A stretch of 42,965 nucleotides of DNA from Gemmatimonadota bacterium (GTDB lineage: Bacteria > Gemmatimonadota > Gemmatimonadetes > Longimicrobiales > Gaopeijiaceae), in NCBI GenBank assembly GCA_022826025.1, contig JAJDVR010000181.1:1-42965 (forward strand), written 5' to 3'. How positions within the stretch are numbered: the stretch's first letter is position 1; every line of letters starts with the position of its first letter. The notes under the pieces were generated by a model, which was given only the letters and a program-made list of their open reading frames with translations, was not told the DNA's origin and made no database searches. Below are positions 1 through 20,800 of the stretch, in pieces. The position numbers and the translations under genes are program-made.

Positions 1-1174
1 CGTCAAGGTGCTCCGCCTCCCGTTGAAGGCGACGCCGTTCCTGGGGGGTCGCGTACAACGTGTGTACCATAGCGCGTTGTTTGTCGGAGGCGGGTCGTAG
101 TACACGACCCAATCGCTGAATCCGCTGCCGTAAACTCGCCGTTGAACTTGCGATGACCGCTACCGCCGTTTCTGGGATGTTCATTCCTTCGTCAAGGGCG
201 CGACAAGATATCAAGACGTCGAAAATGCCGTTGCGGAAGAGACGAAGGTTGTCGCGTCTTACTTCTGGAGACATGCGGGAATGATACAGACAGACGCTAT
301 GGTTCCGCTGCTTGAGGATACCATGAATGGCTTCGGCCGCGCTTACGCGCTCGTGAAATACTATCGTCCGGGCACCTCGGTTCTGTTCAACGATCTTCGC
401 AGCGACAGGGATACGTAGGGTTGCTGTAGCACCGACCGACGCACGCCTCTGAAAGGTCCGTCTCACTTGATCCTCAATGTCGGCGCCTTCATCGGTTCGC
501 CGGCTAAGGAGGATTGCGACACGCTTGGTAAGGCGATCGTACTTGGCTTGCTCATGAGGCAATAGGTCAACCTCTACGTTTACAAGAGTGAACGGTACGA
601 TAATACCATCCCCATAGGCCTGCTGATAATCGTACTCGAAGATGACCTCGCCCAAAACCGGGACGACCCGTTCCTCAAAGCCACTATCATACTCACGGCG
701 CGGGGTAGCCGACAACCCGAGAGCGGCGGTGATGCTTCCGCGCAAAGCCTTGGAGTTTTCAGGGCTACCCGCTCGATGGCACTCATCCACGATGAGCAAG
801 CTTGTGGTGTCGGTGGTGACGGAACGTACAAGACGTCGGCCGGTGTTGATCACGATAATATTGACGACGCGTGGTTCCCCAGCAGATTCTTGGCCAGAAT
901 AGCACGCGATGTCATCGGTAGGTACACCTAAGTCGTGGCGGAGACTAATGTACCACTGGTCTAGCAGGACAACCGTTGGGACAACGATGACTACTCGGCC
1001 ATCCACGTATTTCTTTCGAAACTCTTGCATGCAGAGAAATGCAAAGAAAGTCTTGCCACCTCCGGTTACCACACTAGCAACACCTCGCATCTCTTTCATC
1101 CATTCGGCGAGGGCATGACGCTGCCATCGGCGGGGGGTAATGGAGGCGGTCCAAGGTAGGGTTGGACTAGGCAT
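1..1174 (-). CDS. SF2 (SSL2-like) DEAD/DEAH-box helicase, 3' end outside the window
   Basis: About 390 codons are visible, reading from ATG at 1174 to the left edge without a stop; the C-terminus lies outside. Superfamily II motifs appear in order: Q-region around RRWQRHAL, Walker A TGGGKT (about residues 37-42), DECH (130-133), SATPRR (154-159) and motif VI QRIQRLGRVLR (about 350-359). This is a double-stranded nucleic acid translocase or helicase of the SSL2/Type III Res-like group. The ATG overlaps the 3' end of the upstream methyltransferase gene by 8 nt in a different frame, so the two are probably translationally coupled. Base composition is lower in G+C than in the right half of the window, suggesting transfer. 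The pairing with a DNA methyltransferase suggests a restriction or phage-defence role (inference). A nuclease domain could lie in the missing C-terminus. Confidence 0.85.
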   Translation of the reverse strand, partial: MPSPTLPWTASITPRRWQRHALAEWMKEMRGVASVVTGGGKTFFAFLCMQEFRKKYVDGRVVIVVPTVVLLDQWYISLRHDLGVPTDDIACYSGQESAGEPRVVNIIVINTGRRLVRSVTTDTTSLLIVDECHRAGSPENSKALRGSITAALGLSATPRREYDSGFEERVVPVLGEVIFEYDYQQAYGDGIIVPFTLVNVEVDLLPHEQAKYDRLTKRVAILLSRRTDEGADIEDQVRRTFQRRASVGATATLRIPVAAKIVEQNRGARTIVFHERVSAAEAIHGILKQRNHSVCLYHSRMSPEVRRDNLRLFRNGIFDVLISCRALDEGMNIPETAVAVIASSTASLRQRIQRLGRVLRPASDKQRAMVHTLYATPQERRRLQREAEHLD

Positions 1175-2129
1175 CGGGTTTGAGTTGGTCGGAAGAGGTG
1201 AATCGCCCGATAGAACCCTCAAGGTATGACTTGTCGGGCTCGATTGCAAGCCATCTTCGACCCAGTTCTTCGGCGACGGCTCCGGTTGTATTGCTGCCCG
1301 CGAACGGATCGAGTACCAGGCTGTTCGGGGTCGTTAGGAACTTAATGAAGAACTCAGCGAGTCCGCTGGGCATGCGCGCGGGATGCGGTTGTAACCCGGA
1401 CTCACGGCAGTATTTCAAGTAGGAGGTGTTCGCTTGGGTGTTCGCTTGGGTAATCAGATTTGACGGAATAGCTCCACCGTGGTCCTTGAGAAAGGAGGTT
1501 TGGCCGATGTTGTGCTCGGACGGCCGTCTCCCGGTATTGTAACTCTTGCGCCTTAGGAGACTCTTCATTGCCGAGCTGTAGGGTGTAAGGACGCGCCGAT
1601 TATCGGCGTGTGGGCGATCGGTAAGCGCCATCCACCAAAGATGTGTATAGGCATCCTTGACTCGTATCCGCTCGACGTTCACCCACTGAGCAGGACTTGG
1701 CAGCTTGGCGGGGTTGTGCCACACGAATTGTTGACACAATGTGAAGTTCCCGCGTTCCAAGAAGGCAAGGAGAGCACGGAGGGCAAGCGTGGACATCACG
1801 GGTCGGCCGCGTTCCCACGCGTTGCCCAGCTCAAGAACGATGGAGCCTCTTGGCTGGAGCAGGGCCCTGAAGAGCGGAGCGAAGTCGGCCAGCCACTCAA
1901 TGTAGGCCTCGCCCTGTTCGTTGCCGTAGCGCTTCTTCCTGTTTAGCGGAAATGGCGGTGACGTGAAGATTAGGTCGACCTGCTGCTGTAGCTGCTTCGC
2001 ATACGAGGAGAACTGGAGAACATCCTCGGCCTTGCCAAGCAAGGAACACCCGAGTGGCGTGGCGTGGACAACCGTCGCTTGCATGCTAGCTTTTGCCCGT
2101 CTCCTTGCGTGGAGCAGGTTGATGGGCAC
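1167..2129 (-). CDS. Beta-class DNA methyltransferase (N4-cytosine or N6-adenine)
   Basis: 320 codons from ATG 2129. The catalytic motif IV TSPPF (residues 56-60) precedes the SAM-binding motif I DPFAGSNTTG (274-283), the beta-class order. TSPP(Y/F) is commonest in N4-cytosine enzymes, so m4C is the first guess, but m6A cannot be excluded. A run VLELGNAW and a WHNPAKLP segment fit the interior of this family. An internal ATG at 2084 starts just before the conserved-looking HATPLGCSLLGKAEDVL segment and could be the true start; neither has a convincing ribosome site. It overlaps the helicase downstream by 8 nt. Probable role: modification half of a restriction-like pair, or protective methylation for the helicase-containing effector. 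Target sequence cannot be read from the gene. Confidence 0.85.
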   Translation of the reverse strand: MPINLLHARRRAKASMQATVVHATPLGCSLLGKAEDVLQFSSYAKQLQQQVDLIFTSPPFPLNRKKRYGNEQGEAYIEWLADFAPLFRALLQPRGSIVLELGNAWERGRPVMSTLALRALLAFLERGNFTLCQQFVWHNPAKLPSPAQWVNVERIRVKDAYTHLWWMALTDRPHADNRRVLTPYSSAMKSLLRRKSYNTGRRPSEHNIGQTSFLKDHGGAIPSNLITQANTQANTSYLKYCRESGLQPHPARMPSGLAEFFIKFLTTPNSLVLDPFAGSNTTGAVAEELGRRWLAIEPDKSYLEGSIGRFTSSDQLKPDA

Positions 2130-2323: not shown

Positions 2324-2510
2324 TCACACCTCACCCCTTCTGCGCACTCCCGTCAACACGAAGGCACGACCCCTGTAGTTGTAGGCTAGCTCCTCATGGT
2401 CGATGTTGGTCACGTACAGGACGATCGCGTGCAAGGGCGTGGACGTGGACCGGGGTTCCACGTCCTCAAAAGCCGGAGTAGGCGGCGGCACCGTGGATCT
2501 CGTCACCCTT
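2324..2510 (-). pseudogene. Remnant of the 3' end of a DUF1501 gene
   Basis: On the minus strand the sequence reads a C-terminal segment with LHAIVLY, IDHEELAYNYRGRAF. This matches the intact DUF1501 C-terminus at the right edge of this window ([22 protein letters not shown]). Nucleotide similarity is continuous from about 2345 to 2510 against about 42800-42965, in the same orientation. One extra base in the run near 2432 (gcaagggcg against gcaggtcg) shifts the frame, and an in-frame stop follows upstream. The rest of the gene is absent. A decayed partial copy, not expressed as a protein. Confidence 0.75.
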
Positions 2511-2729
2511 GATGTCACTGCCCCCGCAACACTTGTCTCGCGACGGAGCCTGGACGCGAGACGCTGGATGCGGGAGCGGGCGCGACGCTCGTTAAGGGGC
2601 GCGCGTTCGCGGTCCCCCACTCCACAAGCCAAGGATCGACCACCACGGATCGACGATCCGCCATGATCTTTGTCCCGGTCCGTGTAGTGCGCGCCCAGCT
2701 GAAAGCGCTTGCTTGGGTCGAGACCGCGC

Positions 2730-2999
2730 TCAGACAGCGTACTTAGGATCGATGCTCGACCAGTCTAGGGTGACCCCCTTCAGTGTCGTCGCGATCTGGG
2801 CCTTTTCCATGGGATGAGCCGCATCGTCCTCGAACAAGCCGCCGTTGAACCACTCCAAATCCTCGAACCCCACTTGACCTCCGGTGGAACATTCCGTCGA
2901 CGAGTTTCGCCAGCGCCGCAAGCTACTCGGGCTGCCGGCGCGGGTGCTCTAGCATGCGGGTGAACATGTCGTCGGGGAGCAGGCCCACGTCCTCGGCGA
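2730..2999 (-). pseudogene. Remnant of an MmeI-like (type IIL) DNA methyltransferase
   Basis: Fragments read AEDVGLLPDDMFTRMLEH, then after a stop and a frameshift TGGQVGFEDLEWFNGGLFEDD and LDWSSIDP. These match my memory of the conserved block of MmeI-like and related large methyltransferases (FAEDVGLLP..FTRMLE...TGG..G...WFNGGLFDDD...LDWS.IDPSI). The piece ends at a stop directly after DPKYAV, where the family normally continues IFGTLFERGL. Both catalytic and target-recognition domains are missing. The upstream end is joined directly to an IS3 orfA remnant near 2998. Dead gene. Confidence 0.65.
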
Positions 3000-3159
3000 C
3001 GATCTCCGACACCCGCTCGACGCAACACCGCTTCCACAGCCCCACCGAGCTCGAGTGCACCCCGTACGCATTGGCGACCTGCCGCGGCGTCCTGTCGCCC
3101 GCCAGCACCTCCAGCACCACCTGTGCCTTCAGCTTGGGCGTGTACCTCCGTCTCGCCAT
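2998..3159 (-). pseudogene. IS3-family orfA transposase remnant
   Basis: Reads MARRRYTPKLKAQVVLEVLAG...GVHSSSVGLWKR, the N-terminal helix-turn-helix of IS3-type OrfA proteins. About 54 residues remain of roughly 90-100, then the frame runs without interruption into the MmeI-like remnant (AEDVGLLP). No orfB and no inverted repeats are visible next to it. The chimeric open frame extends 2923-3165. Confidence 0.6.
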
Positions 3160-3440
3160 GTCCACCGCCTTCGGTTCTGCCAGGTGCTACCCTGAGCAGC
3201 CTCGCTCCCGGAGGTCAACTCCACAACAGTGGGGTGCTCTGGATTCGGGGGTCAGATCCCTGGCATGAGTGTAAGGCTCTCGTACACGTCTGGCGGCGAC
3301 CAACAGCTCTATAAGTCGCACACCTCGTCCGCGCGGCGCGTCGTCCCCTCCGAGGGCTTGTGCTCTGACGGGCTCCAGCGGCATGATGTGTAAGCCTCGG
3401 CACGTCACGTCCGGTCTCGTCAATAGTAAGTCAAACCTTG
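3160..3440. other. Spacer without recognisable gene
   Basis: Only short overlapping open frames on both strands. None has a recognisable domain, a ribosome site or a plausible partner. Probably decayed sequence between the IS3 remnant and the helicase operon. Confidence 0.5.
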
Positions 3441-6347
3441 TCATGTCCGGTCATGCCGACCGAATAGCTCTTCGAAAGTCGGCGGCCTGCCCGTGTGGGT
3501 GGCCCTTGACGATGTCGGTGGCTCGAACTCCGGTTCGGCATCAAGGACTCCCAAGAACACAAGCTCCTTCCCCACCCGCGTGATCATGTGGTTCTCGGGC
3601 GTGATCACGAATTTCCCTCCGCGCTTAAGCTGGAAGACCTGGGCAGCCGCCGTCGTAACCTCGACGTTGGCTATTCGCTGGCGCCCGTTCCGAGTCTTCT
3701 TGAAAGGTCTGCCCGATGCGTCCACATGGTATTCCTTGCCCGCATAGGCGCCCGGATACGGATCACCGGGCGTGAGGTCGCCGACGTCGAATTCGGGAAC
3801 AGTCTCTTCTTCCCATCCTGATTCAACGTCCGGAGGATGGCCCTCGCGCCAATCGCCTCCAGGCGACCCCGGGTCTGCCGGTGGGGACCAGTGAACCCAG
3901 CGAATCTGGCTGGACCCCAGTTGCTCCGCCCAATCGGTACCGTGGAAGATCCGCTCGTCCGTCGTGTCCCGTACGTAGATGACGTATAGTTTGGCTGCGC
4001 TATTCTTGCCAGCCGCGCGTCGTAGGATCCGGCCGGTCGTCTGTATGCGTTGGCGAACGGAACTGGAGGAGGCCCGAATGATTCCGACATTGGCGGCGGG
4101 AACATCGACACCCTCCACCAGGGCCTTCACAGAGAGCATCACGTTTGCCCAGCCCTCCCGGAAAAACTCCATCGAGATCTCGTTCCACAGGGGCTTCGAT
4201 CGTCCCGAGTGATACATGACCGCACGAAAAGCTTCATTCCACAGAAGGCGGGCAAGTTGATTGTTGATCTGTCGCTCCACCTGGCTAAGCTGATGGGCCT
4301 TCCGCCCATCCATTGGCGCAACGACCTCCTGAACGTTTTCGATGCGTTCGTCAAAGACGATGATGCGGTCTTCCTGGCCATCGCCGCGGACCGCGTGTTT
4401 CACCACGATATCCAGATAGGCCCACTTCCTGTTTCGCGCTCGATAGACGAGCTCCTTCCTCTCCCGGACGGCCTCGAAGTACTTGGGGATGGCGGGATCG
4501 GGTCTCTCGTCGCCATGAAGGATCGTGTGAAGGCGTGCGAAAAACGGCCCTGGCATGGCGTCGATTCGCGGCCCGTACCGTTGGCGAATCTTCTGCAGGG
4601 CGGTCCGAATACGCTTGCTGTATGCCTCGTATTGGGCACGCTCTGATGTGCCTAGTTCAACGCCCACGTAATAGACCTCGAAGGGCTGGACGACACCGTC
4701 AGATCTCGCCTGCTGATAGGTGTATTCGTAGGCTAGGGACCCCAGCTCCAACAACAGCGGGTCGCCGGACTCCTCAGAGTTCTCCCCTCTGCTCGCTTGG
4801 GAGGAGTCCCCCAGCGTGGCGGAGAGTCCGAGGCTGAAATCGTAGCGTGCGCCGAAGGCCCGACGGAATGCTCGGCCGCGGTATCGATGGCATTCGTCCG
4901 CAATCAGGAGATGAGGCGTGTTCGAGGGCAGGCTCGCCGCGTCTCTTCGGAGCTGATCATCGAGGATCGCCGAGTTGATGATGTTGACGACGATTCTCCG
5001 GCCTTCAGCGAACTTGTCCCTGTGCCCATCACCACGGAGCCCGATGTCATCCGGCGGGACCCCCAGCAAGCGGACAAGCTCCATGACCCACTGGTACATG
5101 AGGACCTTGGTGGGCACGAGGACGGTCACGCGGAGTTCGGGGTGCGACTTCAGCAGCTGCTGGACGGCAAGCAACGCCAGGAAGGTCTTTCCCGCTCCCG
5201 TAACGACTTGGAGAACGCCTCGACGTCCAGCGTCGGTCCAGCAACGGAGCGCTTCCGACTGCCAACGGTAGGGCGCCAGAGATGGGGCGAGCGAGTAGTC
5301 GGGTCCTTCATGCTTCAGTTTGAGAAGCGCCCGACGTGACAAACGCGCCCCCGAGGAGTTCAGACTCAATTCCGCCTGTTGCACCTCCCCGTCGGCGAGG
5401 TGGTCCCGTATTCGGACGAGCTTTGCCGCGTTACGGACGTTCTCGACCCGGCGTCCGACGGAAGTCCCGTAGTCGGCGATCTCGGACCTCAGGTCCGCCA
5501 AGGTCTGTTGGCTGCGGTCGATCTCGTCGCGGATCTCAGACCTCAGGGACGCCGAGTAGCGGTTCTTGAAGAGCCGGTCGCGAGTCTTGCGGATCCGGGC
5601 CCGTCTTCCCTTGCCACCACTCTCTCTCCACATGAAGAGTTTCGTCAGATCGATCCACTGGGATTGGTCGAGTACGTCGGTGGACAGGGGGTCGATCGTG
5701 GCAAGGATGCGCTCGATTCGGTGATAGGTATCGCGTTTCCTCAGGCTGGGCCGACGCCTCCTTCCACGCGAGGTGACGACTCGTTTTCTGCCTTGGACTT
5801 CGACCCACTCCGCCAACTCCATAATGCGAAGCGTCTCTCCTACGGTGCGTGCCCCATGTCGATCACCACCGTCGTACCGACCGGTTCCACGGACCTGATC
5901 GATCTTCAAGTGGTCCCAGAGCTGCGTTATTCCCAAGCCCGTTTCGGCGCCGTCGAGGGCAGATAGCAGGTCGTAGGCAAGCTGAAGGCCATCTGGCCAC
6001 CACCAGCACCACTTCAAGATCGTCTTGTCGACGTACTCCCTAAAGCCATCGCGCGAGCCATCCCACGTCCCATCCCAGGAAAACCGTCCGAAGGGGAAGG
6101 GATCGGGCGGCAGAATACGGTGCCCCGAACGCCCCAGGAATCCGATGCCGGCAAGGTTGGAAACAAGCTTGGCGACCATCCCTTCACTGTAGGGCCGGCC
6201 GTCCTTCTCACGGATCAGTTCTTCCCGGACCAACCTCCTGAAGTCCTCCGCCGTGGGTTCAGATAGAGAGGCCTTGTAACACACCCAGTACTGTTCCCTG
6301 TCGCGTGGCATGGGGTAGAGGGTCGGAAGTCTGACTCCGCGGGACAC
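3441..6347 (-). CDS. SSL2-like SF2 helicase with N-terminal extension and C-terminal shared module
   Basis: 968 codons from GTG 6347, chosen because GGGAGG lies about 10 nt upstream and the start sits 4 nt past the stop of the preceding gene; ATG 6311 is an alternative without a ribosome site. Residues 1-360 form an unrecognised basic and partly winged-helix-like region. The helicase core has Walker A TGAGKT (about 383-388), DECH (484-487), SAT (509-511) and motif VI QRIQTTGRILR (766-776). Its motif VI region resembles the helicase at 1-1174. The tail (about 868-935) reads Y.GKEYHV..SG...(IANVEVTT)...LKRGGKFVITPENHMITRV..ELVFLG and matches the module repeated in both upstream genes. Last gene of a tight three-gene operon. 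Likely an ATP-driven nucleic-acid translocase that acts with the two small proteins (inference). Confidence 0.85.
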   Translation of the reverse strand: MSRGVRLPTLYPMPRDREQYWVCYKASLSEPTAEDFRRLVREELIREKDGRPYSEGMVAKLVSNLAGIGFLGRSGHRILPPDPFPFGRFSWDGTWDGSRDGFREYVDKTILKWCWWWPDGLQLAYDLLSALDGAETGLGITQLWDHLKIDQVRGTGRYDGGDRHGARTVGETLRIMELAEWVEVQGRKRVVTSRGRRRRPSLRKRDTYHRIERILATIDPLSTDVLDQSQWIDLTKLFMWRESGGKGRRARIRKTRDRLFKNRYSASLRSEIRDEIDRSQQTLADLRSEIADYGTSVGRRVENVRNAAKLVRIRDHLADGEVQQAELSLNSSGARLSRRALLKLKHEGPDYSLAPSLAPYRWQSEALRCWTDAGRRGVLQVVTGAGKTFLALLAVQQLLKSHPELRVTVLVPTKVLMYQWVMELVRLLGVPPDDIGLRGDGHRDKFAEGRRIVVNIINSAILDDQLRRDAASLPSNTPHLLIADECHRYRGRAFRRAFGARYDFSLGLSATLGDSSQASRGENSEESGDPLLLELGSLAYEYTYQQARSDGVVQPFEVYYVGVELGTSERAQYEAYSKRIRTALQKIRQRYGPRIDAMPGPFFARLHTILHGDERPDPAIPKYFEAVRERKELVYRARNRKWAYLDIVVKHAVRGDGQEDRIIVFDERIENVQEVVAPMDGRKAHQLSQVERQINNQLARLLWNEAFRAVMYHSGRSKPLWNEISMEFFREGWANVMLSVKALVEGVDVPAANVGIIRASSSSVRQRIQTTGRILRRAAGKNSAAKLYVIYVRDTTDERIFHGTDWAEQLGSSQIRWVHWSPPADPGSPGGDWREGHPPDVESGWEEETVPEFDVGDLTPGDPYPGAYAGKEYHVDASGRPFKKTRNGRQRIANVEVTTAAAQVFQLKRGGKFVITPENHMITRVGKELVFLGVLDAEPEFEPPTSSRATHTGRPPTFEELFGRHDRT

Positions 6348-6351
6348 TCTT

Positions 6352-7170
6352 CTAGGCCTCCCGCCCGTCGTCCTCTGGTGGATCGGACTCGAATGCTGTC
6401 CAAGGAGGCGCGCCGTGGTCGAACTCGGCGAGCCTTCCGATGTACAGGGGACGACAGCCCTTGGTAGCCTCGATGCGTTCCCGGAGCAGTCGAAGCGTCG
6501 CGTACGCCCGTGCATCCCAGAGTTGCTTCAGTTGCGACCGCTGAAGAAGTCGCAACCGGGTTCTATGGTCCGGGTTGATACCACCGTCGGGGACGTTCAT
6601 CCACACGCAACGGGACTCCGTGATGTAGATTCGGCCTCCGCTAGGCCGTAGGTCCAGACAAGCCGAGAACAGCTCGGGATACTCGCGCGTAGACGAGAAG
6701 ACGTAGCCACGCGACTTCCATTCGAGGCGGTTCCGCACCTGGGAGTTGGGCGACACACGCCAATACTCGCCGTGCATGAACGGGAGTCCGGTCCAGTACA
6801 TTCCCCGAGTCAACGTTGCCGGTGCGTTCTCGATGCCGGGAAAGACGAGGTCGCCTTCGTAGATTCCTACGTACCGGGGTTCCCACCAAGTGCCCCCGCC
6901 CCTCTGCACCTTGGTAATCACTGCCCCGTGTGGGGTAACCCGGAAGGAACCGTTGTGTCCCTTGATCGCGCGAACAGAGTCGGCCAGCCGCCGTGGATAG
7001 GGTTCGGCTCGGACGCTTAGCGGGTCACGTTGCCAGCCCACGTACGTTAGTCCCCCGCCGCGACGCACCCTGTACTGACTACCGCGGTAGGGGGCTGGCC
7101 AGGGTTCACCTGGCCTAACGGATCGGATCTCACCGTTCGCGGCCTGTACGTTGATCGGACGGGATTTCAT
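6352..7170 (-). CDS. Unrecognised beta-rich protein with two copies of the operon's shared module
   Basis: 272 codons; ATG 7170 overlaps the previous stop (ATGA) and is preceded by GGAGGAAA. I do not recognise a named family. Two module copies are visible. Copy 1 (about 28-103) has YRGSQYRV, then NGSFRVTPHGAVITKV and WEPRYVGIYEGDLVF. Copy 2 (about 131-192) has HGEYWRVSPNSQV, then SGGRIYITESRCVWMNV. Both match the repeats in the gene upstream and the helicase tail downstream. No signal peptide or membrane segment, so probably cytoplasmic. A basic helical stretch (about 200-245) follows the repeats. Pattern of Gly, aromatic and beta-strand residues suggests a small beta-barrel or sandwich that binds a shared partner (nucleic acid, or each other). 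Function unknown. Confidence 0.75.
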   Translation of the reverse strand: MKSRPINVQAANGEIRSVRPGEPWPAPYRGSQYRVRRGGGLTYVGWQRDPLSVRAEPYPRRLADSVRAIKGHNGSFRVTPHGAVITKVQRGGGTWWEPRYVGIYEGDLVFPGIENAPATLTRGMYWTGLPFMHGEYWRVSPNSQVRNRLEWKSRGYVFSSTREYPELFSACLDLRPSGGRIYITESRCVWMNVPDGGINPDHRTRLRLLQRSQLKQLWDARAYATLRLLRERIEATKGCRPLYIGRLAEFDHGAPPWTAFESDPPEDDGREA

Positions 7171-8000
7171 CGAGTTTCCTCCCGATCGAGGGCATCTTCG
7201 ATCTCCGCGAGTGGATCGAACGGCGCCGGCGCGTTGTCCTCCATCGCCCCTCCGTACTGCGACAGGAAGGCCATGAGGTCGGCTTCCTCCCCGGGGGTGA
7301 GTGGGGCGGAGAGATCAATTGCTTCATGTAGAGTGAATCCGCCCGAGTAGTCACCAAGGAATACGGGTAGGAGCGCCACGTTGCGCATCTTCACTTCGAT
7401 GAGCCGTTTCTGGAGATCTGTGAGGGCCTCGTACTGGTCCTTCATCCCCCGCGGCAACGGCTGTGGCGCGATGAGAGCGAGTACCTTGCCGTTCTCCGTG
7501 ACTCGTATGGAGCCCCCTTCGGGCTTCACCTGTCGGAAGCGAGCCTCGATGTCAGCAGGCAACGTCTCCCGGGTCTGCTGCCACACGCCATCAACGGAGT
7601 TCTTCCACCACAGGCGCCCGTTCTTGTAGGAATACCGGGCACCATCGTAGAAGGAAGGCCAGAGCCCGAGCGGTAGGACGCCGGTCCCCAGTACGTCTAG
7701 GGAGCTAAACTCCAACGGAACATTGTAATCAGCGACATAGACGGGCTCCCAGCCACTCGGCATTCTCGTAAGGACGGCGCCGGTCTCGGTAATGCGGAGA
7801 CTCCCGCCCTCCGGCCTAAGCGAGAGGTAGGCCTCGGAGACCTCACGAAAGCCGGCGGTGGCCGCGACCCTCACGGTCGCCATGTTCTGGCGGTCAGGAA
7901 GCTCCCACCAGAACTCGCCATTGGGCTTGCAGTGGTACTTCGTACCTCGGTAGTGCTCATCCCACCCGTCTCCGCGTTTCAAGATTCGCTCTTGCGTCAC
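7167..8000 (-). CDS. Unrecognised beta-rich protein with two shared modules, first gene of helicase operon
   Basis: 277 codons from GTG 8000, with AGGAG 9 nt upstream. Module copy 1 (about 17-90): YRGTKYHCKPNGEFWWE, MATVRVAA, EGGSLRITETGAVLTRM, then WEPVYVADYNVPLEF. Copy 2 (about 118-178): YDGARYSYKNGRLWWKN, then EGGSIRVTENGKVLALIA. The C-terminal 90 residues are mostly helical and acidic (LTDLQKRLIEVKM; LTPGEEADLMAFL). No known family recognised; no signal peptide. Its stop overlaps the start of the next gene, so the three genes are almost certainly one transcript. Homology to the tail of the helicase argues the three products recognise a common ligand or assemble through this module (inference). 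Confidence 0.75.
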   Translation of the reverse strand: MTQERILKRGDGWDEHYRGTKYHCKPNGEFWWELPDRQNMATVRVAATAGFREVSEAYLSLRPEGGSLRITETGAVLTRMPSGWEPVYVADYNVPLEFSSLDVLGTGVLPLGLWPSFYDGARYSYKNGRLWWKNSVDGVWQQTRETLPADIEARFRQVKPEGGSIRVTENGKVLALIAPQPLPRGMKDQYEALTDLQKRLIEVKMRNVALLPVFLGDYSGGFTLHEAIDLSAPLTPGEEADLMAFLSQYGGAMEDNAPAPFDPLAEIEDALDREETR

Positions 8001-8737
8001 CTACTTGATCTCCTGGTCAATTGGGACCCCTTCGGGATGCGAAGTGCCCTCCGCGGGCAGATCACGCGCATCCAGTTTCCTTCAGCGGTGAGACCCCCGT
8101 CCAGCCTGGTATCCGTCCGCGTGCTCAAAACCGCCGTGCTCCATGACAGAGGTTTCGCGCGCCCGCAATCTAAGCCCATCCTACAGCAGCGGCAGGGCGA
8201 GGGTGGGCATGTCGTCCTCGAAACCGGCCCCAAGCCTGCATCATCACCTGGCGCGCGGCCGCACCGGTCATTCGGCAACTTGCCACGGAGATCGACTTCG
8301 GGTCCCCCAGAGGGCTTGGCGCGCCGGTGGCGATAGCGCTTTGAGATGACCTGGACGGATGCTACAGGCGTTGAGAGTGATCTTCGAGGGACAGGGCGGG
8401 TTCCGTGAGATGGGGCCGCCAGAGGATTAGAAAGGCTGGGGGGATGAACAAATCCCGCAACATCCATAACAGGCTGAGGGCAGAAGGCCATTTGCTTTCT
8501 GTGAGCACCCGTGTTACGCTTGTTACGTCAGGCGTGACGGCAGGTGCTCGCATCTGTCTCCATGCTTGGTGAGAAGCAAACGGCGGGACACCGGCCCTCG
8601 GCTTGGGGAAGCTGGTCGGTGCCCCGCCCAGACACAGGAGGCGCTGGCCCGACCGGGATTGGCCATCCCAACCGAAACGCCGTATGCGTCGGTGCATACA
8701 AGGTACCCTCCATGGCCAGAAGGGTCAAGGAATAGTC
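8001..8737. other. 737-bp stretch without intact gene
   Basis: Lies between the divergent starts of the helicase operon (8000, minus) and the small coiled-coil gene (8738, plus), so it must hold both promoters; I could not pick convincing boxes. The only recognisable content is an antitoxin-gene remnant at 8261-8330. Open frames here are short and look like noise. Confidence 0.5.
8261..8330 (+). pseudogene. Remnant of a DUF433-type antitoxin gene
   Basis: Seventy bases align with 17153-17221 inside the antitoxin gene of this window with few mismatches and one inserted base. It reads APVIRQLATEIDF before the shift; the intact gene reads the same residues. Nothing flanking it matches the rest of that gene, so this is a small leftover of a second, related toxin-antitoxin locus. 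Confidence 0.75.
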
Positions 8738-9202
8738 ATGGTGACAAATCGAGAAGCGTTTGAGCAGGTGATCGCGTTCTACAAGAAGCGCCATCGTGAA
8801 TTGCAGGAAAGGCATCATGACGCTTCCATCGAGGTTGCACGGCTTGAGGGTTGGCTGGATGAGTGTGAGAAGATGATTCAAGAACTGAGGAGTGATAGGA
8901 AGCTTGCATCGGAGGAAGGACCCTATGCAGAGTTCACATCTACTCCATCAGCTATCCGTGCTTTTCTGAGTCATCACTCCCCATCAGATCTTGATACCAT
9001 CATAAGGGGAATTCTGGAGGGTGGGTTCAAGACAGAATCTACGGATTTCCGGCAGGTTGTGCGGATGGCTCTTCGACGGATGGGGCAGAGAGGCCAAGCT
9101 AATCAAGATGGACGAGGAGACTGGTTTCTGGCAGATGTAGTAGTAGTAGATGCGGAAGATATCACTCCCTCGAACCTCCCAAGGCAGGTAGCTCCCCTGT
9201 AG
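8738..9202 (+). CDS. Small coiled-coil protein of unknown function
   Basis: 154 codons from ATG 8738, with AAGGA 6 nt upstream; the open frame extends further 5' but that part lacks sense. Residues 1-55 are strongly helical and charged (FEQVIAFYKKRHRELQERHHD, ARLEGWLDECEKMIQEL), a likely coiled coil. Residues 75-145 (SPSDLDTIIRGIL, DFRQVVRMALRRMGQRG, GRGDWFLAD) look like a winged-helix or other small DNA-binding fold. G+C is visibly lower than in neighbouring genes, a sign of transfer. It stands alone between mobile debris; no partner is evident. Confidence 0.6.
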   Translation: MVTNREAFEQVIAFYKKRHRELQERHHDASIEVARLEGWLDECEKMIQELRSDRKLASEEGPYAEFTSTPSAIRAFLSHHSPSDLDTIIRGILEGGFKTESTDFRQVVRMALRRMGQRGQANQDGRGDWFLADVVVVDAEDITPSNLPRQVAPL

Positions 9203-9280
9203 GTAGTCCCCCCGGCTCCGCCAATACTGCCTGTACAAGTACGGTATTCCCCTGACACCCGGCCTCATCGAGGTCAGGTC

Positions 9281-10095
9281 CTACGCTGCCTTCCTCACCT
9301 CCTTCCTGGCCGCGGGTCTGCGGGTGCGCTTCCGGGCGATCCCGGCCTTGAAGACCGCGTAGGGCGTACGTCCCTCCATGCCGCGGCCGCGGGGCTCGCT
9401 GTCCTCCAGCTGCAGGAAGAGCTCGCAGGGGTGCTTGTCCGGCCGGCCGCAGTACTCGAACTCGTTGTCGCTCAGGATGGTCTGGATGGTCACGCTGTGC
9501 TTCTCGAAGAAGGGCAGCTCGTGGTTGTTCAGGACCTGGACTGCGCTCCGGCATCTTCGAGGTATAGAGCCGCGCCCAGACGTGGCGGCTGAAGCAGTCG
9601 AGCACGGTCTGGACGTAGACCTTGCCGACGCCCTTGAGGGTGCCCGCGAAGAAGGTGTCCACGGCCACAAGCTCCTCGGTGGCGTGGACTTCGATGTGGC
9701 GCTCGCCGAACTCGGGATCTAAGCGCTCGAGTGCCTGGATCTGTTCCTCGGTGAGCTTGATCTTGCGGTTTGCGGACCGGCTCCTCCAGCCTCTGAGCAT
9801 CAGCTCGTCGGGCCACCCGCTAGGGCCCCATGGGTCAGATGCTTGAGCGCATGGGCCACGATCGCCTTCTCGATCGGTGGTGCGACCCCTGTGCGGATGC
9901 GGCGCCTTCGCGCCGGGCATCCGGGTCGAGCAGCCCCTCGGCGCCGTGCACCTGGAAGTTGCGGCGGATCTCGTAGAAGTGCTGCCGGCTGTAGCCCACG
10001 ATCCGGCACGTCTTCGAGACGTTGCCGAGTTCCTGGGCCAGTTGTAGCAAGGACAGCTTCCTGCGCGCTATCTTCTCTGCCTGGACGGTGGTCAT
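9281..10095 (-). pseudogene. Decayed IS481-like transposase
   Basis: The first part (ATG 10095) reads MTTVQAEKIARRKLSLLQLAQELGNVSKTCRIVGYSRQHFYEIRRNFQ, the helix-turn-helix of IS481-like transposases (here paraphrased from several short runs). Reading then changes frame at least twice: the DDE-domain start (VDTFFAGTLKGVGKVYVQTVLDCFSRHVW) and the later part (SDNEFEYCGR, then GRGMEGRTPY) lie in different frames. Between LFLQLED and GRGMEGRTPY the usual 60-odd residues, including the region of the catalytic Glu, are missing, as is part of the linker after the helix-turn-helix. Terminal inverted repeats were not identified. Inactive. Confidence 0.75.
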
Positions 10096-10269
10096 TCTGG
10101 TTCTCCTCCGTGGTTGTTGAGTTGACTCGGCCCTCTTCTCAACTAACCTCGGCGGGGCCGGTCTGGCCACCGTCCCCTTCGGAGGACATCTGTCAAGTGC
10201 CTACTGTTCTACAAAAGACAGGCTTATCGTAATAGTCGATCAGCAAATTCAGATTCGGTGCGCCAAGCC

Positions 10270-11646
10270 CTATTCTGACCATCTGGATAGCTGGCTAAAG
10301 TGCGCGAATCTCGTAGTACCGTACTTCGCTGTCCAGAGTTCCTCAGGGAAGTCCAGGCACGGACGACATTGTAGGGACCGTCCGCGATGCACGGACAGCA
10401 CCTGCTCGATTACGTCGAGCTTCGCCTCGACGTAGTTTGGAGCCCCTGGAACGGGACCGAGCGAGAGCTTGTCGATTTCAACCGCCAGTAGGCCGGCAGC
10501 AGCAGCAGACTGAAAAGGCAAGGACGCGTGAACAGTCTCCGCCTCACCCGGAGCGGATTGGATCTCGACCGGTCCCTCCGCGCAAATGGTGGGCGCCACT
10601 TGAGCCTCCAAAGGGAAACGGCATTGGAGGCAGTATCCAGATCCAGGCGCATGTGCCCCGAACGCTACGCCCCAATCCGAATCTGTCGTGGCCTGCAACG
10701 TCAGCGGGAGGACTGCATGCGCCATCTCTGCCCATACCTGATCTTCATTCGCGAGGGCCAACGCCAAGTCAAAGTCGCCAACGCGATAATCCTTGCTGGC
10801 GTATTCCGCCCACTTCGACGGGACGGGACGGACTCGGAGTGTGGGGAAGCACTCCACAGCCCGGAGCACGGCATCAGCCTTCGGCGTTTCTTGCGGATGA
10901 GCATCCTCCAATCCGAACAGCAGCGAGCGGTCCAGGTTCTCGACTTTCGCTACGTCGTGATCCACGACCAGCAGGTCGGCTCGTGCGCCCATCAGACCGA
11001 GGAAGTAAATGATGTTGGAACCGACGGCCCCTGCACCGACCTGCAGAACGTTTCCAAGCTTCGGTGGACGAACAGGCAGTGTTGGCCGCTCGCGACTACG
11101 TGGGGCACCGCCTACGGAATGATTCCACGTGTCCCATCGAAGTTCCGGCGGTCCTGCTACCGGAAGCTTCCACGCCTCCCGGAACACTCCACCGACGCCC
11201 AGTGTTACTGCGAACAAGAGCACCGACGTGATGGGTGTCGAGGAGGGCGCAGGCGAAGGACGCCGGTTACAGATCGCTACCCACCCATCGGCCCAAGCCG
11301 TGAGCCCGTTGGGCGACGAGGTCGCGCTAGGCCCTATGGTAAGGGACGGGCCAAGGGGAGGTGTGTCCAGCCATCGAATCTCAAGAAACGGGTTTGCTGT
11401 CCTCACCGCTGTTTCAACGGCCATCGCCAGTGACCCGGTCCGTTCTTCGGGGAGGTGGACTGATAAGTTGGGTACCCATCGAGCAAGTAGGTTCGCCGCC
11501 GCGATTACCGCAGGACGGGCGGCCGAATGGCGCAGGGCTGCCCGCTGAACAACTAGGCCGACCTCCTCCGTGGGACAGGAGCCGCCAAAGCCAAGGCGTA
11601 AGGCGCGATCACCCCGACGTGCGAGGAACTCCTGTTCAGAAATCAA
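10270..11646 (-). CDS. E1-like ThiF-family activating enzyme of a ubiquitin-like system (BilD-like)
   Basis: About 458 codons if it starts at TTG 11646, which overlaps the JAB stop as TTGA; the frame is open further upstream to 11763. Residues 1-195 are an N-terminal domain of unclear fold. The Rossmann adenylation domain starts at VLQVGAGAVGSN (about 204-211), followed by VDHDVAKVENLDRS (ATP and Ubl C-terminus binding). Two CxxC pairs (YCLQC and QCRPC) probably bind zinc, and the Cys in APTICAEG is a candidate thioester residue. Last gene of the Ubl-E2-JAB-E1 operon. Expected reaction: ATP-dependent adenylation of the processed Ubl C-terminus and transfer to the E2. Order and gene set match the Bil anti-phage system, in which a ubiquitin-like protein is conjugated to phage structural protein. 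Confidence 0.85.
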   Translation of the reverse strand: MISEQEFLARRGDRALRLGFGGSCPTEEVGLVVQRAALRHSAARPAVIAAANLLARWVPNLSVHLPEERTGSLAMAVETAVRTANPFLEIRWLDTPPLGPSLTIGPSATSSPNGLTAWADGWVAICNRRPSPAPSSTPITSVLLFAVTLGVGGVFREAWKLPVAGPPELRWDTWNHSVGGAPRSRERPTLPVRPPKLGNVLQVGAGAVGSNIIYFLGLMGARADLLVVDHDVAKVENLDRSLLFGLEDAHPQETPKADAVLRAVECFPTLRVRPVPSKWAEYASKDYRVGDFDLALALANEDQVWAEMAHAVLPLTLQATTDSDWGVAFGAHAPGSGYCLQCRFPLEAQVAPTICAEGPVEIQSAPGEAETVHASLPFQSAAAAGLLAVEIDKLSLGPVPGAPNYVEAKLDVIEQVLSVHRGRSLQCRPCLDFPEELWTAKYGTTRFAHFSQLSRWSE

Positions 11647-12146
11647 CGACGATGGTCCACTTCGGCTGGGAGAATCTGTAGATGACCCGAATGCTCCCCG
11701 ACCGGTATGAACCGATAGAATCCACCCATGAAGCGGTGGACACCCCATGTCGAGGGCTTCCAATCTCCTGCAGCAAAGTCGGGTACCACGATGGAAATTG
11801 CCCCCTCGAACGGACTGAATGTGAGAAAGTCATCCCCCTCCGAGTGCCGCGCAGGTGATCCAGGTGGATGGGAGTGCGCTTGACCCAAGAGTACGATTCC
11901 GTGGCTCGTCAGGGTCTCGATGACCTCCGAGTTCGCCTCGATCGAGGTCTCAATGCGCCTATAGGATGCATCCGCTCGTGGGACGATCAGGGTGGTGACG
12001 GTGCCCCCTTGGCCGTCCTGCACTCCTGCCCAGTAGACCAGACCTTCTGTCTCTTCGAAGGTCTGAAGTAGCGCATGTGTCCGGAGAGCCAGTTGGACTG
12101 GGACCCGCACCGGCTCATACCGGTCCGGTACTGGAGTACCGCTCAT
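11643..12146 (-). CDS. JAB/MPN (JAMM) isopeptidase of the ubiquitin-like system (BilC-like)
   Basis: 167 codons from ATG 12146, which overlaps the E2 stop (ATGA) and has GGAGGAG just upstream. The JAMM zinc motif is clear: upstream Glu near residues 31-34 (EETEG), then GQAHSHPPGSPARHSEGDD (H91, H93, S102, D105). Such proteases trim the C-terminal tail of the Ubl to expose the diglycine and can remove it from targets. The Ubl here ends GGGVNV, so processing is required, consistent with this gene being in the operon. Probably cytoplasmic; no signal peptide. Confidence 0.87.
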   Translation of the reverse strand: MSGTPVPDRYEPVRVPVQLALRTHALLQTFEETEGLVYWAGVQDGQGGTVTTLIVPRADASYRRIETSIEANSEVIETLTSHGIVLLGQAHSHPPGSPARHSEGDDFLTFSPFEGAISIVVPDFAAGDWKPSTWGVHRFMGGFYRFIPVGEHSGHLQILPAEVDHRR

Positions 12147-12601
12147 CTCCTCCGCCCCTTGTAGGTACCGAAGTGGTTGTTGATGCTCGCGAAAATGTGG
12201 TTCAGCATCCCCCCGATGTCCTCTGTCCCCGGGTTCGAGGCCCAACCGCTGAACTGCCATTTCTTGTGGAGCCCGCTGTGCTCGCGGTAGGTCTTCCTAT
12301 TGAATCGCGCGCAGATGCAGGGATGTTTGTGGAAGCATGTGGGGTATGCGGAGAGCGTTCCGGCTTCTCCAGTTTCCGGGTCCAAGAATTCTACGAACGG
12401 CGGGATCGCGCGGTATCCATCGAAGTTCATCTCGACCACGTATTCTTCTTCGTCAACGCGAGACGCGCCGGTGACGCGGATGCTCAGGTCCGCCTCGGTC
12501 AGCATCGAGGCGTCCACGTCCAAGCCGAACAGCTCGATGATGGGCTTAGCGCGCTGCAGTTCGACCTGGACGTGATGCAAACTCACTTCCGCCGGCACCA
12601 T
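12143..12601 (-). CDS. E2-like conjugating enzyme (BilB-like)
   Basis: 152 codons; ATG 12601 shares a base with the Ubl stop (TGATG). The order beta-strand rich N-terminus, then YPTCFHKHPCICARFNRKTY (around 86-105) fits a prokaryotic E2 fold, where HPxx.xxC carries the thioester cysteine; C97 or C95 is the candidate. The following KWQFSGWASNPGTEDIGGMLNHIFASI resembles the helical end of E2 proteins. Sequence identity to classical E2s is too low to judge by eye, so the call leans on position between a Ubl and a JAB/E1 pair. Expected role: accepts Ubl from the E1 and passes it to target lysines. Confidence 0.75.
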   Translation of the reverse strand: MVPAEVSLHHVQVELQRAKPIIELFGLDVDASMLTEADLSIRVTGASRVDEEEYVVEMNFDGYRAIPPFVEFLDPETGEAGTLSAYPTCFHKHPCICARFNRKTYREHSGLHKKWQFSGWASNPGTEDIGGMLNHIFASINNHFGTYKGRRR

Positions 12602-12909
12602 CAGACGTTGACACCGCCGCCGGTGAGCACTAGCTCGTCGCCATCCTTCAACTTCAAGCTCGCCAAGGGACGGTCGGGATCGAGTTGCTCACCCGAGGCC
12701 TTCTCCACCAGCGCGTACTCCCCGGCCCCGGTCAGTTCGAAGCGCTCTCGCACTGCATGGATGACCTCCTCGACCTTCGTCGTTCCGAGGAACTCGAAGG
12801 TGTCGGTGCCGCGAGTGGTGCTGATCACGAGGGAGATTTTCTCGTCGGGCTTCGTCGGATCCTCTGGCTTCATCGGATCCTCTGGCTTCGTCGGATTCTG
12901 TGGCTTCAT
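12601..12909 (-). CDS. Ubiquitin-like modifier with Pro/Lys-rich N-terminal repeats (BilA-like)
   Basis: 102 codons from ATG 12909 with AGGAG 8-9 nt upstream. Residues 1-23 are tandem six-residue units (KPQNPT, KPEDPM, KPEDPT, KPDEK). Residues 24-99 form one beta-grasp domain (ISLVISTTRGTDTFEF, LDPDRPLASLKLKDGDELVL). It ends TGGGVNV, so a C-terminal tripeptide or so must be cut to expose glycine. Classical BilA proteins carry two beta-grasp domains; this has one plus a flexible tail. First gene of the operon, divergent from the XRE gene. Confidence 0.82.
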   Translation of the reverse strand: MKPQNPTKPEDPMKPEDPTKPDEKISLVISTTRGTDTFEFLGTTKVEEVIHAVRERFELTGAGEYALVEKASGEQLDPDRPLASLKLKDGDELVLTGGGVNV

Positions 12910-12919
12910 CGGATTCTCC
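12848..12919 (-). repeat. Four tandem 18-bp units at the start of the Ubl gene
   Basis: Units of the form ggcttc(g/a)tcggat(c/t)ctct repeat four times on the plus strand. Three encode the KPxxP(T/M) units; the last covers the start codon and the Shine-Dalgarno sequence, so unit number could change both the tail length and the initiation region. Confidence 0.8.
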
Positions 12920-12975
12920 TTCCCGGGGCGTTTGCGCCCTGAACCAGGGTGATATACGTTGCAGCATTCTCGTCT

Positions 12976-13035
12976 GCTGCGACGGCGTATGGGGCAGGGG
13001 CACGAAAAACGGCCCATATGACGCCGTATGGAAAG
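12976..13035. promoter_or_regulatory. Candidate XRE operator in the divergent Ubl/XRE intergenic region
   Basis: Between the Ubl start (12909) and the XRE start (13086) lie two direct copies of a (g/c)cgtatgg element (12984-12992 and 13023-13031). The second forms a dyad CCATA-N8-TATGG (13014-13031). The position between an XRE-type regulator and the operon fits a repressor site. No footprint evidence. Confidence 0.4.
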
Positions 13036-17856: not shown

Positions 17857-17896
17857 GATATCGCCTTCGCGCCGATGGACATCGCTCAGGTCACCC
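17857..17896 (+). repeat. 40-bp inverted near-copy of part of the PLD-like gene
   Basis: Plus-strand bases here read DIAFAPMDIAQVT and match the minus-strand coding sequence at 21745-21784 (EIAFVPMDIAQVT) at 37 of 40 positions. The copy overlaps the last codons of the helicase gene (stop at 17886-17888). It looks like the end of a lost, oppositely oriented PLD gene copy. Confidence 0.85.
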
Positions 17897-20800
17897 TGGG
17901 CGGTTGCAGCGATATCCGAAACTGATTCAAGTCCACCTCGTCGGCATCCTTGTCCCGCACGCGGCGCAGGTACTCGACAAGGTCTTCCTGGCGGGGCTGC
18001 CCGAAGGCCAGGCGGTAGACGGCGAGGCTGCCGAGCAGACGGCGAAGCTGGTCCACTTCACTGCTGAAGGGAAGCATGGGAACACGACGCTCCACGCGGG
18101 CGTCGCCATGCTCGAAGATCCAGTAGGGTACAAGATCGCTGGACTCCGGTGGACGCTCGTCCCTAGCGCGCCGGAACAGGACCTTCCACGGATCGCGGGC
18201 GGCGTATGCACCTCCGTTTCGAGCCCTGCGATAGGCGTCGTCGCCGTACCGTTCTGCCACGTTCTTGCGCACCGCGTGGCCCTTGTAGCGATGAACACGT
18301 CCCTCGCGTTGCTCCAGGTCCACGGGATTGCGCGGCAGGTTCCAGTGGTAGACCGCGTGGCAGTAGGTGTGGAAATCGAGGCCCTCCTGACCGATTGAGG
18401 TGGTGGCGAGGATGAAGGGCCGGAACGGCGAATTGAACGCCTTCCTCACGGTGTCGGCGCGCTGGACGCTCTCGCCGCGCTCGCTCTGCAGGTCCCCGAA
18501 ACGAAGCGCGAAACGGGTGCGCATGTTGAAGGGACTCATCTCGATCGGGGTGCCGGGCCCCGCGCAGCGGATGTCGTCGATCCGCACTTGCGACGTGCGT
18601 ATGGATAGCGCCTCGACCATCTCCTTGGAGATGCCGACCACGCGATCCGTAGCCGAATGGCCCATCAGCCCCAGCGATTCCTCCAGCACGTGCGCGTACT
18701 CGTCGAGCACCGCCTGGAGATTCCCGGCGAGGGCGTAGCGCAGCACCAGCTCCCAGTACCGGGTGTGGTGGTCATGTGGCGGACGCGGCGTCTGCGTCGT
18801 CCGTTCCTTCAACTCGTCCTCGAGGGCCCGGACCAGGGAGATGCACTCGGGCATGTTGAAGGTGCCGCGCAGGCCATGGGCAATGCGAGACGCCCCGGCG
18901 AGCAGCTCCGGTGAAGTCGGCGGCATGTCGGCGATGCGCCGGAGCGCCCGGTGCGCGCAGACGCCCGGGCCAGCGAGCGCCACCAGAGCCAGCACTTGAA
19001 AAAGGTCTTCGGGCGGTGTGCCCATAGGCTCTCCGAGATCCGGTTGCCCGGCTATTGCGCGACCGAACTCGGCGACGTGCCGACGGAATCCCCGGTTTCC
19101 GGCACGACCGGAGGTGGCGGAGGGCCAGCCGTCGTCGGCGCTCACCCAGTCCCGGACGCCCGGATGGAGCACGTGGTCGAGCATAGCGGGCGCGACCCAG
19201 TACCAGCGCTGGTCCGTCTGGCCAGCCCGGACCTCGCCAGGCGCATCCGCGCGGACGACGACGCCGGCATCTTGGAAGCGTCGTCTCAACCGCTCCATCA
19301 CCGCCTTGAGAGCCTCACGGGACGTAACGGGGGCTCCGCGTTCCCCGGCAAGGCTCAACGGATCTCCAGCTTCGGAAAGCGACGGGCTGGGGTAGAACAG
19401 CGGCAGAATGTTCATTGCCCCCGGTCGGTCCCGTTGCGCGGAGTCGCCTCCGTGCCGCGGTTCGCCCGAATCCCTGCTCATGGGAAAGTCCAGCAGGCGG
19501 GCGCGGGAGCGGTGGAGTTCCGAGTAGACCGGGTGGTCCGCGCGGCCCGACTCCCGCTCCAGCATGAGGCGGCTGACCTCGTAGGAACAGAGCGCGGCAA
19601 TGGCGTCGGGCACCACGTTCCAGGACGAGAAGACGAGAGCCTTGGTGGTCTGGCCTGTGTCGGCGTACGGACCGCCGGGCTCCAGGTACGGCAGCGCGGG
19701 CGGCATCCACAGCCACTTCCACTGCCCCTGACCCACCGTCTCATCCAGCAGCTGCCGCAGACGGGGGTTGGCAGGCTCGATCGGGGCATACCGCTCCACG
19801 GCGTCCCGCTTGAGCAGCGAGGCGTCCCCGTCGCGCACGGCCTCGGTCAGCTCAGGCGGCGGATCCGCGACTCGGTCCCTCAGCCGCTCTTTGAGCTTGT
19901 AGTCCCGCATCACGTTGAGCAGGAAGGGGGCCGACTTCCAGTACTGCATGGGGTCGCGGGCGTTCAAGCTGGCGGCCACGCGGTAGACGGTGCGCGCCTG
20001 GCGAAGGTCCTCGGGCCGGAGCGCGGGCTCGGACGGGCGTCCGCGAAGCATGCCATCGCTGTCGGCGGTGGCCCGCACCCGCTCGGTCCGCACCATGAGA
20101 CGCAGCAGGCGGCCTTCGAGATCGCGGCGCGCCTCCTCCATTTCGAGGTTCCCGGCGGCACCGTCGAGCAGCCCAAGACGGTACCGTCGGATAGCCGCGT
20201 GCAGCCCCCGCATGGTCTCCTCGTCGTCTTCGCAGAGGAACCGGCAGGTGCGCAGGAAGTCAGCGTAGTGGTCCTCGCCGTCTTCGCCGTAGAGGGTCAG
20301 CATCTTGTAGGGCGTGGCCGACAAGAGCAGGACCCGGGTGCGGAGGCCCGCTTCGGGAGCGGCCCGGTCGTAGTGGAAGTCGAGGAGCTGGCGGGTGAGG
20401 CGGGCGGCTGGGCTCTCGGAATCGAGGAGGCTGCGGAAGCGCTGGAACTCGTCCAGGATGATCAGGTCGGGCTCAAGCGCACGAATGCAGATGCCTGCGA
20501 GCATGCCGCGCAAACGGCCGACCATCCAGTACTGGTCGCACGACTCGCCCCGCGCGAACGCCTCGCAAAAGTCCACAAGCCTGCGGTAGAGCTTGCCGTC
20601 CTCCAGGAGCCGCGCGAGGAAGGCATCGGTGAGGCCGTCGTCGACCGTCGGCAGGTTCCACCGCATGTGCCAGCGGTAGCTCTTGTCTCCGACTCCGCAC
20701 TGGAGGAGCCGGTAGAGGCCGTACCGGTTGAGCGCGGGAGCGATTCGAGGCAGCGTGCGGATCGGCTGATGGTCGGTCGTCCTGTGCGGCTTGGTCGGCC

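Follow-up and report, generated by a model that had tools for sequence, protein, structure and literature searches.

A three-gene cassette combining an XPB/PbeA-like helicase with two partners that share its C-terminal module, a candidate mobile defence system of Gemmatimonadota and haloarchaeal plasmids

XPB and Bax1 form a helicase-nuclease pair, and superfamily 2 (SF2) helicases are accompanied by unrelated partner genes in the defence-island systems Hachiman (HamA-HamB) and DISARM (Drm). According to the accessible parts of PMC13192584 and PMC13316683, Druantia III (DruH-DruE) likewise joins an SF2 helicase to unrelated partner genes in defence islands. PbeABCD, which is centred on a CxC ABC-ATPase and DndE, is described in the accessible part of PMC6459918 as stopping viral DNA from replicating with no visible cleavage, whereas the contrary view, that PbeA does cleave, is taken in that of PMC10853773. 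Here, we describe a three-gene cassette, A-B-H, in a stretch of 42,965 nt from a Gemmatimonadota bacterium (GenBank assembly GCA_022826025.1, contig JAJDVR010000181.1), in which H is an SF2 helicase and one protein module is carried twice by A, twice by B and once by the C-terminus of H. This stretch, referred to as the window, takes up an entire contig (G000:C118) in an assembly made up of 287 contigs. With a probability that we put at about 0.5, the three genes of A-B-H make up a self-contained system of a motor and two adaptors that spreads horizontally and most likely acts against viruses or mobile elements. Two things are new, the module family and the design with a motor plus two adaptors, neither of which matched anything searched; the helicase core is of a known kind. 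The cassette is laid out in the window as follows.

3450..8025, minus strand: A-B-H cassette, the sole high-identity block (88-90% nucleotide identity) in common with the sequences fetched for three other Gemmatimonadota loci
8000-7167, minus strand: gene A, 277 aa, acidic (isoelectric point (pI) 4.9), two module copies
7707..7973, minus strand: module copy A1, in gene A
7329..7664, minus strand: module copy A2, in gene A, with an inserted, probably helical, segment preceding the last strand
7170-6352, minus strand: gene B, 272 aa, basic (pI 10.0), with two module copies and paralogous to A along most of its sequence
6841..7113, minus strand: module copy B1, in gene B
6412..6795, minus strand: module copy B2, in gene B, with a longer insert
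6347-3441, minus strand: gene H, 968-aa SF2 helicase with an XPB/PbeA-like core and a GTG start
5313..6347, minus strand: N-terminal region of H, residues ~1-345, no family match
3948..5300, minus strand: helicase core of H, residues ~350-800, with the motifs GAGKT, DECH, SAT, EGVDVP and RQRIQTTGR all present
3522..3767, minus strand: C-terminal module copy of H, residues 861-942, independent E-value (i-E) 8e-18 with a module hidden Markov model (HMM) whose profile includes this copy

An earlier reading of the window, made from its letters and open reading frames (ORFs) and hereafter called the sequence-only reading, had described tightly packed genes, and the packing stands: A and B overlap by ATGA at 7170-7167, and a 4-nt gap separates the stop of B from the GTG of H at 6347. 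A longer ORF of H from an ATG, reaching to 6515, is unsupported, since three close relatives have the identical first residues MSRGVRLPT and in L019 and L020 the codon just upstream of this start closes the frame. The five haloarchaeal H genes described below were read from the upstream start that their open frame allows, with which the annotated start concurs in one of five (L015). A scan for promoters and terminators found none.

The claim that A, B and the tail of H carry five copies of one module was confirmed by shuffle and profile tests. In the single-sequence test, the copy windows were compared pairwise with 1000 shuffles for each of the 10 pairs; six pairs (A1-A2, A1-B1, A1-B2, A1-H, A2-B1 and A2-B2) were equalled by 0-2 of 1000 shuffles, B1-H had moderate support (20/1000), and A2-H (330/1000), B1-B2 (341/1000) and B2-H (573/1000) were not significant. 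When family profiles were scored against each other with 20 column shuffles per pair, eight of the 10 pairs (A1-B1 82.9, A1-A2 79.7, A2-B1 77.1, A2-B2 67.1, A1-B2 45.3, A1-H 43.2, B1-H 39.6 and A2-H 37.2) were far above the column-shuffled maxima of 14.7-18.6, while B1-B2 was weak (24.4 against a control of 16.5) and B2-H was not significant (20.3 against 20.8). The family profiles of A and B aligned over 209 columns (probability 99.5%, E 8e-23), which makes the two proteins paralogues over most of their length, and each of these profiles also found the H tail (E 4e-6 each, probability 87%). By these comparisons, the copies form one connected family, though B2 has no direct match to the H copy, and their homology is almost certain. 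A compositional coincidence could appeal to the two of 10 pairs that are not clearly related directly, B2-H and B1-B2, but the shuffle controls, the columns conserved from bacteria to archaea and the recovery of a divergent operon by the module profile itself refute it at the sequence level and leave it practically no chance.

As cut here, the copies were longer than the 65-75 residues first proposed, with 82-91 residues for A1, B1 and H and 112-128 residues for the second copies of A and B, because a probably helical segment is inserted ahead of the last PVYVG strand in the latter. The H copy was indeed found at the C-terminus, with boundaries at residues 861-942 in place of about 868-935, and the label 'beta-rich' has as its one basis a crude propensity average, which reads E-E-E-H-E-E-E. 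The consensus begins with Y..G..Y/S, continues through a W(W) strand, a P..L helix and GGs.R[IV]T..G.V.T and ends in a closing VYVG strand, and the module columns are conserved across bacteria and archaea. All nine close H proteins, whether bacterial or haloarchaeal, have retained the tail, which scores an i-E of 1.5e-18 to 1.4e-14 with the module HMM; six of these nine tails are part of that HMM.

No convincing match to the module was obtained in any of the protein-family and structure libraries searched. Among 32 module copies searched against Pfam, NCBIfam and PADLOC, no family was matched by more than one copy, and a PDB search with the copies gave nothing credible. Gene A had no match in Pfam, PADLOC or NCBIfam; in a PHROGs scan, A of the window matched one family of unknown function (E 0.017) and B matched none. 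The earlier statement that no named system has this design agreed with these searches, in which the family was not already characterised in Pfam, NCBIfam, PADLOC or PDB, and the three-gene design was not named in the open-licence literature searched by description, sequence search not being possible there. Several candidate relatives were rejected. The designed protein 'Cake' and related PDB entries (whole-sequence E down to 8e-7) owed their scores to summed short repeats of which no stretch passed alone, and chance was taken to explain further PDB matches with E-values from 0.16 upward, CBS-domain and calsequestrin proteins among them. One of the 32 copies matched TIGR03984, the family of the type III-D CRISPR subunit Csx19, at E 0.0013; this lead was followed by TIGR03984 searches and by comparison with Synechocystis Csx19 and plasmid relatives. 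Six profile comparisons with three Csx19-type sequences, one of which (G179) was itself below the family cut-off, never rose above the maxima of shuffled controls, and no module copy passed the TIGR03984 cut-off in 10 genomes or records, and the likeness was rejected.

Co-occurrence of the module with such helicases in other genomes, on which the proposal of a system depended, was found repeatedly. A-B-H was present in three other Gemmatimonadota genomes (loci L017, L019 and L020) and on five haloarchaeal plasmids (L012-L016), and a very divergent version was present in G083. Searches by tblastn with A and with B gave the same five plasmid records, all haloarchaeal (hosts Halorhabdus, Natrinema, Haloferax, Halobaculum and Halalkaliarchaeum), in all five of which a tailed helicase directly follows A or B. 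A related helicase was present in 21 plasmid records, among which these five ranked best; the other 16 were outside the A and B matches. In 394 genomes of the class, gene A had four real matches including that of the window itself; the count is four and not five because an additional match in G344 (E 1.2e-5) was a false positive, a KdpB-like P-type ATPase by reading of its sequence.

A module profile lacking G083 still found the divergent operon (L048) of this fifth Gemmatimonadota genome, in which a 720-aa helicase with a C-terminal copy (1.8e-6 before G083 copies were added to the profile) is followed by a 226-aa and a 243-294-aa protein with two copies each; the genes overlap, and the start of the last one is uncertain. 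With G083 included, the profile detected exactly five copies in each of five of the 394 genomes, and matches in G173, G185, G286 and G298 (E 1e-3 to 8e-3) were discarded as the chance rate for a set of this size. In the family set, the module was found in 3 of 121 genomes. Beyond the five genomes, no reliable match was obtained in the 394 genomes of the class, 395 of the phylum (with an earlier profile) and 121 of the family, which are overlapping sets.

The module count was exactly 2+2+1 in all 10 loci. No stray copies were found among 1797 open frames of ten neighbourhood stretches (E 0.1), save the tail of H itself cut on the overlapping L018, or among 405 open frames of the window (E 1), and in six control helicase loci (four from the list of 21 plasmid-helicase records and two from another search) none of 772 open frames matched the module at E 10 with default filters. 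The genes were contiguous in the order A-B-H in seven of the 10 loci, with the helicase first in one (G083) and B remote in two (L012 and L014). Because the four A-B-H versions from bacteria are 88-94% alike and two plasmids have a 96% identical block in common, the 10 loci amount to about six lineages. The three genes very probably constitute one functional unit.

Comparison of the DNA surrounding the cassettes showed A-B-H to move between differing contexts as an exact unit of 4.57 kb. By blastn, the window had single blocks in common with L017 (3460-8025), L019 (3450-8021) and L020 (3452-8021) at 88-90% identity, which begin at most 25 nt ahead of A and stop just short of the end of H. Beyond the cassette, only a 172-base match of 71% with L019 at 9232-9395 was found in the fetched sequences, and the cassette is flanked by Bil-like genes and transposase-like remnants in the window but by a cyclase and a SLATT_4 effector of CBASS in the other three. 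Two of the plasmid loci, L013 and L015, have exactly A-B-H in common at 70%.

In a tree of the module, the A1, A2, B2 and H copies each formed one clade spanning bacteria and archaea, with the G083 helicase copy beside the H clade (85/76), from which the module positions look older than the split between bacterial and haloarchaeal A-B-H. All three genes are under purifying selection: the ratio of non-synonymous to synonymous substitution rates (dN/dS) relative to the window was 0.15-0.18 for A, 0.15-0.19 for B and 0.20-0.24 for H, with a range of 0.11-0.33 over all pairs, and in comparison with L020 it was 0.32 for the H tail alone and 0.26 for the N-terminal region of H.

Transposase-like fragments flank the cassette in the window at 2324-3165 and 8025-10170, as judged from reading of the ORFs; the 71% match with L019 at 9232-9395 falls within the second of these stretches. 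In L015 (8497-16661) and L016 (8497-16663), a five-gene block that is 96% identical between different flanks comprises a 597-aa protein with a weak match to NERD/Card1-like nucleases, a 375-aa protein, A, B and H.

The designation of H as an SSL2-like helicase was sound, with archaeal XPB/Rad25 proteins as the closest solved structures (PDB, E 5e-21) and Pfam matches to ResIII (4e-19), DEAD (3e-13) and Helicase_C (3e-8). SF2 motifs I, II, III, V and VI (GAGKT, DECH, SAT, EGV[DN][VA]P and R.[RK]IQ[ST].GR) are intact in all 10 H proteins, each of which also has the patterns for helicase motifs I-VI, and the pattern of the W-Q element ahead of motif I was missing in G083 only. The RESGGxG motif of the N-terminal region is invariant in nine H proteins; the G083 helicase is without this region and has extra residues after its module. 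The H.K....D motif of PLD/HKD nucleases was found in none of the 10 H proteins, no PLD Pfam match was found in the four H proteins scanned, and A, B and H contain no recognisable nuclease.

The closest defence profile to H was that of PbeA in PADLOC (1e-52), matched by the core only (profile positions 247-628 of 672), and the NCBIfam model TIGR04095 for a DNA phosphorothioation restriction enzyme was matched at 2e-39 with 135.8 bits, short of the curated cut-off of 600. By these matches, the core of H belongs to the SF2 lineage of PbeA, and A-B-H resembles PbeABCD in being a multi-gene cassette of both archaea and bacteria. Unlike PbeABCD, however, A-B-H has no recognised ABC-ATPase or DndE partner, H lacks the PLD/HKD nuclease motif, and its terminal module is missing from every library searched. 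A, B and their modules matched no Pbe profile in PADLOC or Pfam, and PbeB, PbeC and PbeD were not among the PADLOC matches listed for 17 other window ORFs. Judged by its gene content, A-B-H is not PbeABCD. Druantia III, Hachiman and DISARM only work alike: H weakly matched HamB (4.5e-5, PADLOC), and A and B matched no partner profile of the three.

The relation to XPB raises the possibility that A-B-H serves mobile elements in DNA repair or replication restart, as a complex of an XPB/Rad25-like helicase with two clamp-like partners, and is not concerned with defence. The solved archaeal relatives of H fit such a complex, as does the plasmid location of the haloarchaeal copies found, but its distribution is patchy (5 of 394 genomes of the class) and yet 88-91% identity is seen between genomes of two families, and most contexts adjoin defence genes. 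Moreover, H scored 43.6 bits with the XPB equivalog NF045503, for which the curated cut-off is 610; H adds an N-terminal region and a C-terminal module to the XPB plan, and A and B of the window match no Pfam family, DUF790 (Bax1) included. We thus regard a repair complex as improbable. Membership of SF2 alone leaves the substrate unsettled, and the core of H has weak similarity to Mfd and LGP2 (PDB), so the motor might instead act on RNA or transcription complexes as an RNA helicase or polymerase remodeller, with modules that bind RNA or RNA polymerase; as the best-scoring families (XPB, PbeA and type III Res) are DNA-directed, this is very unlikely, and a preference of H for DNA is inferred from the same relatives.

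The following neighbouring genes bear on the function of the cassette or lie farther away in the window.

Window 10270-13017, minus strand: four consecutive BilD-, BilC-, BilB- and BilA-like genes (PADLOC E 9e-11, 7e-7, 6.5e-4 and 0.025)
Window 17886-24294, minus strand: ZacC, ZacB and ZacA (PADLOC 1090, 505 and 338 bits), another defence system of this island
L020 10644-15292, same strand as A and directly upstream of it: helix-turn-helix (HTH)-helicase, SMODS cyclase and SLATT_4 two-transmembrane effector
L012 4849-11814 and L014 4431-11862, divergent from A-H: operon of an SNF2 helicase, an unknown protein of 1095-1245 aa, a nuclease and B

A recognised or annotated defence gene was found nearby in seven of eight contexts, which were scored by family matches or record annotation, L012 and L014 having the same kind of operon. 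In the window, the products at 10270-13017 comprise a ThiF/E1 protein, a JAB protein, a BilB-like protein and a ubiquitin-like protein, and this is probably a Bil-type ubiquitin-like conjugation operon; it lies upstream of A across a gap of ~2.3 kb that holds transposase-like remnants by reading of the ORFs. CBASS genes were recognised by profiles in L020 and by homology in L017 and L019. An Mrr-type nuclease and a DrmD/DpdE-like SNF2 helicase that is below the DISARM cut-offs lie near the cassette in L012, and L014 has homologues of both genes, the nuclease being annotated in the record. Record annotation placed a Piwi protein near the cassette in L013 and a type I restriction-modification system in L015, and a Shedu SduA_C domain was found in G083 (39.1 bits against a cut-off of 27). 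In L016, the only neighbour of this kind was weakly nuclease-like, as inferred from its 95.6%-identical homologue in L015. Taken as a raw count, this context is suggestive, and neighbours that are mostly defence genes (Bil-like genes, CBASS, Shedu, restriction enzymes and Argonaute) point to A-B-H as a probable new antivirus machine. A role in defence, as the sequence-only reading had suggested, is accordingly the likelier one on sequence grounds.

The same neighbours allow that A-B-H is not autonomous and serves as an accessory cassette of the adjoining defence system (CBASS, Bil or nuclease-SNF2 operons), for example by delivering or amplifying its effector. A starts 0-76 nt after the frame of the CBASS effector on the same strand in L017, L019 and L020 and 10 nt after the 375-aa gene in L015 and L016, whose five-gene block is common to both loci, and B lies within the operon of the nuclease gene and the SNF2 helicase in L012 and L014. 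However, the partner changes in almost every lineage, and such varying partners together with the distance of ~2.3 kb from the Bil-like genes in the window imply that no single partner is required. An accessory role is unlikely, if still a serious alternative. The 375-aa genes upstream of A in L013 and L015 were not homologous by BLASTP.

For a self-contained system of a motor and two adaptors, we tentatively propose the following mechanism, which we hold to be possible but not the probable one in its details. H would be an XPB/PbeA-like SF2 motor, A and B would be paralogous adaptors, and the fifth module on H would be a C-terminal docking or assembly element. A and B would form a complex, co-translated in most loci through their overlapping start and stop codons, which would bind H through contacts between modules and, on invading DNA, set its position or act as its gate; H would spend ATP to translocate on or remodel this DNA. 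The 2+2+1 count, the paralogy of A and B and the tail of the motor all point to a complex held by module-module contacts, and an assembly role shared by all copies of the module, as previously suggested, is plausible. Because no nuclease was recognised in A, B or H, the outcome may be either a block of replication without cleavage or a hand-over to a nuclease acting in trans from neighbouring genes; the precedent of PbeABCD and the debated cleavage by PbeA favour a block by DNA remodelling or such a hand-over. A more specific arrangement, which we consider rather unlikely, is that the fixed 2+2+1 count stems from a single physical structure, in which the five homologous modules of A, B and the H tail make up a closed, pseudo-five-fold ring or clamp, with the fifth module serving as the tether of the helicase; only a complete ring would then allow the motor to load onto foreign DNA or to be released on it.

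Some observations weigh against an autonomous antiviral system of this kind. The support of the defence-gene context is circumstantial, as at least two of the six control helicase loci (L062 and L065) also have a defence gene near, as judged by reading of their neighbourhoods. In the Halorhabdus and Haloferax plasmids (L012 and L014), B is located 6-7 kb from A in another operon, so that tight coupling of A and B is not universal. The opposite charge of A (acidic) and B (basic) in the four close bacterial versions is absent from the five haloarchaeal versions, in which both proteins are acidic. In the module tree, B1 did not form one clade, and the four small-protein copies of G083 stood apart on long branches, as a consequence of which neither of its small genes can be assigned as A. 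The tailed helicases clustered in the helicase tree with weak support (73/56), and no relative was found in viral contigs by five short-pattern scans or in phage records by a search with gene A only.

If the proposal of a self-contained system is true, A-B-H would represent a new protein module family and, with its strict 2+2+1 composition, a motor system of three genes that crosses the divide between bacteria and archaea as an exact cassette; the ring, if true, would be a motor-plus-hetero-ring defence architecture common to both domains and built from a domain family missing from the libraries. The relation to PbeA also bears on the published open question of how Pbe-type helicases halt viral replication without visible cleavage, and the haloarchaeal copies reside on sequenced plasmids of named strains, where defence, and the way in which a helicase lacking a recognisable nuclease would provide it, are directly testable.

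A second PbeA-like helicase, cut by the contig end, was found together with a DNA methyltransferase at window 2-2129 on the minus strand. This helicase grouped loosely with the tailed helicases (82/84), and its C-terminus, the possible site of a tail, is missing. A methyltransferase 46-48% identical to the one beside it lies downstream of H in L018 and L021.

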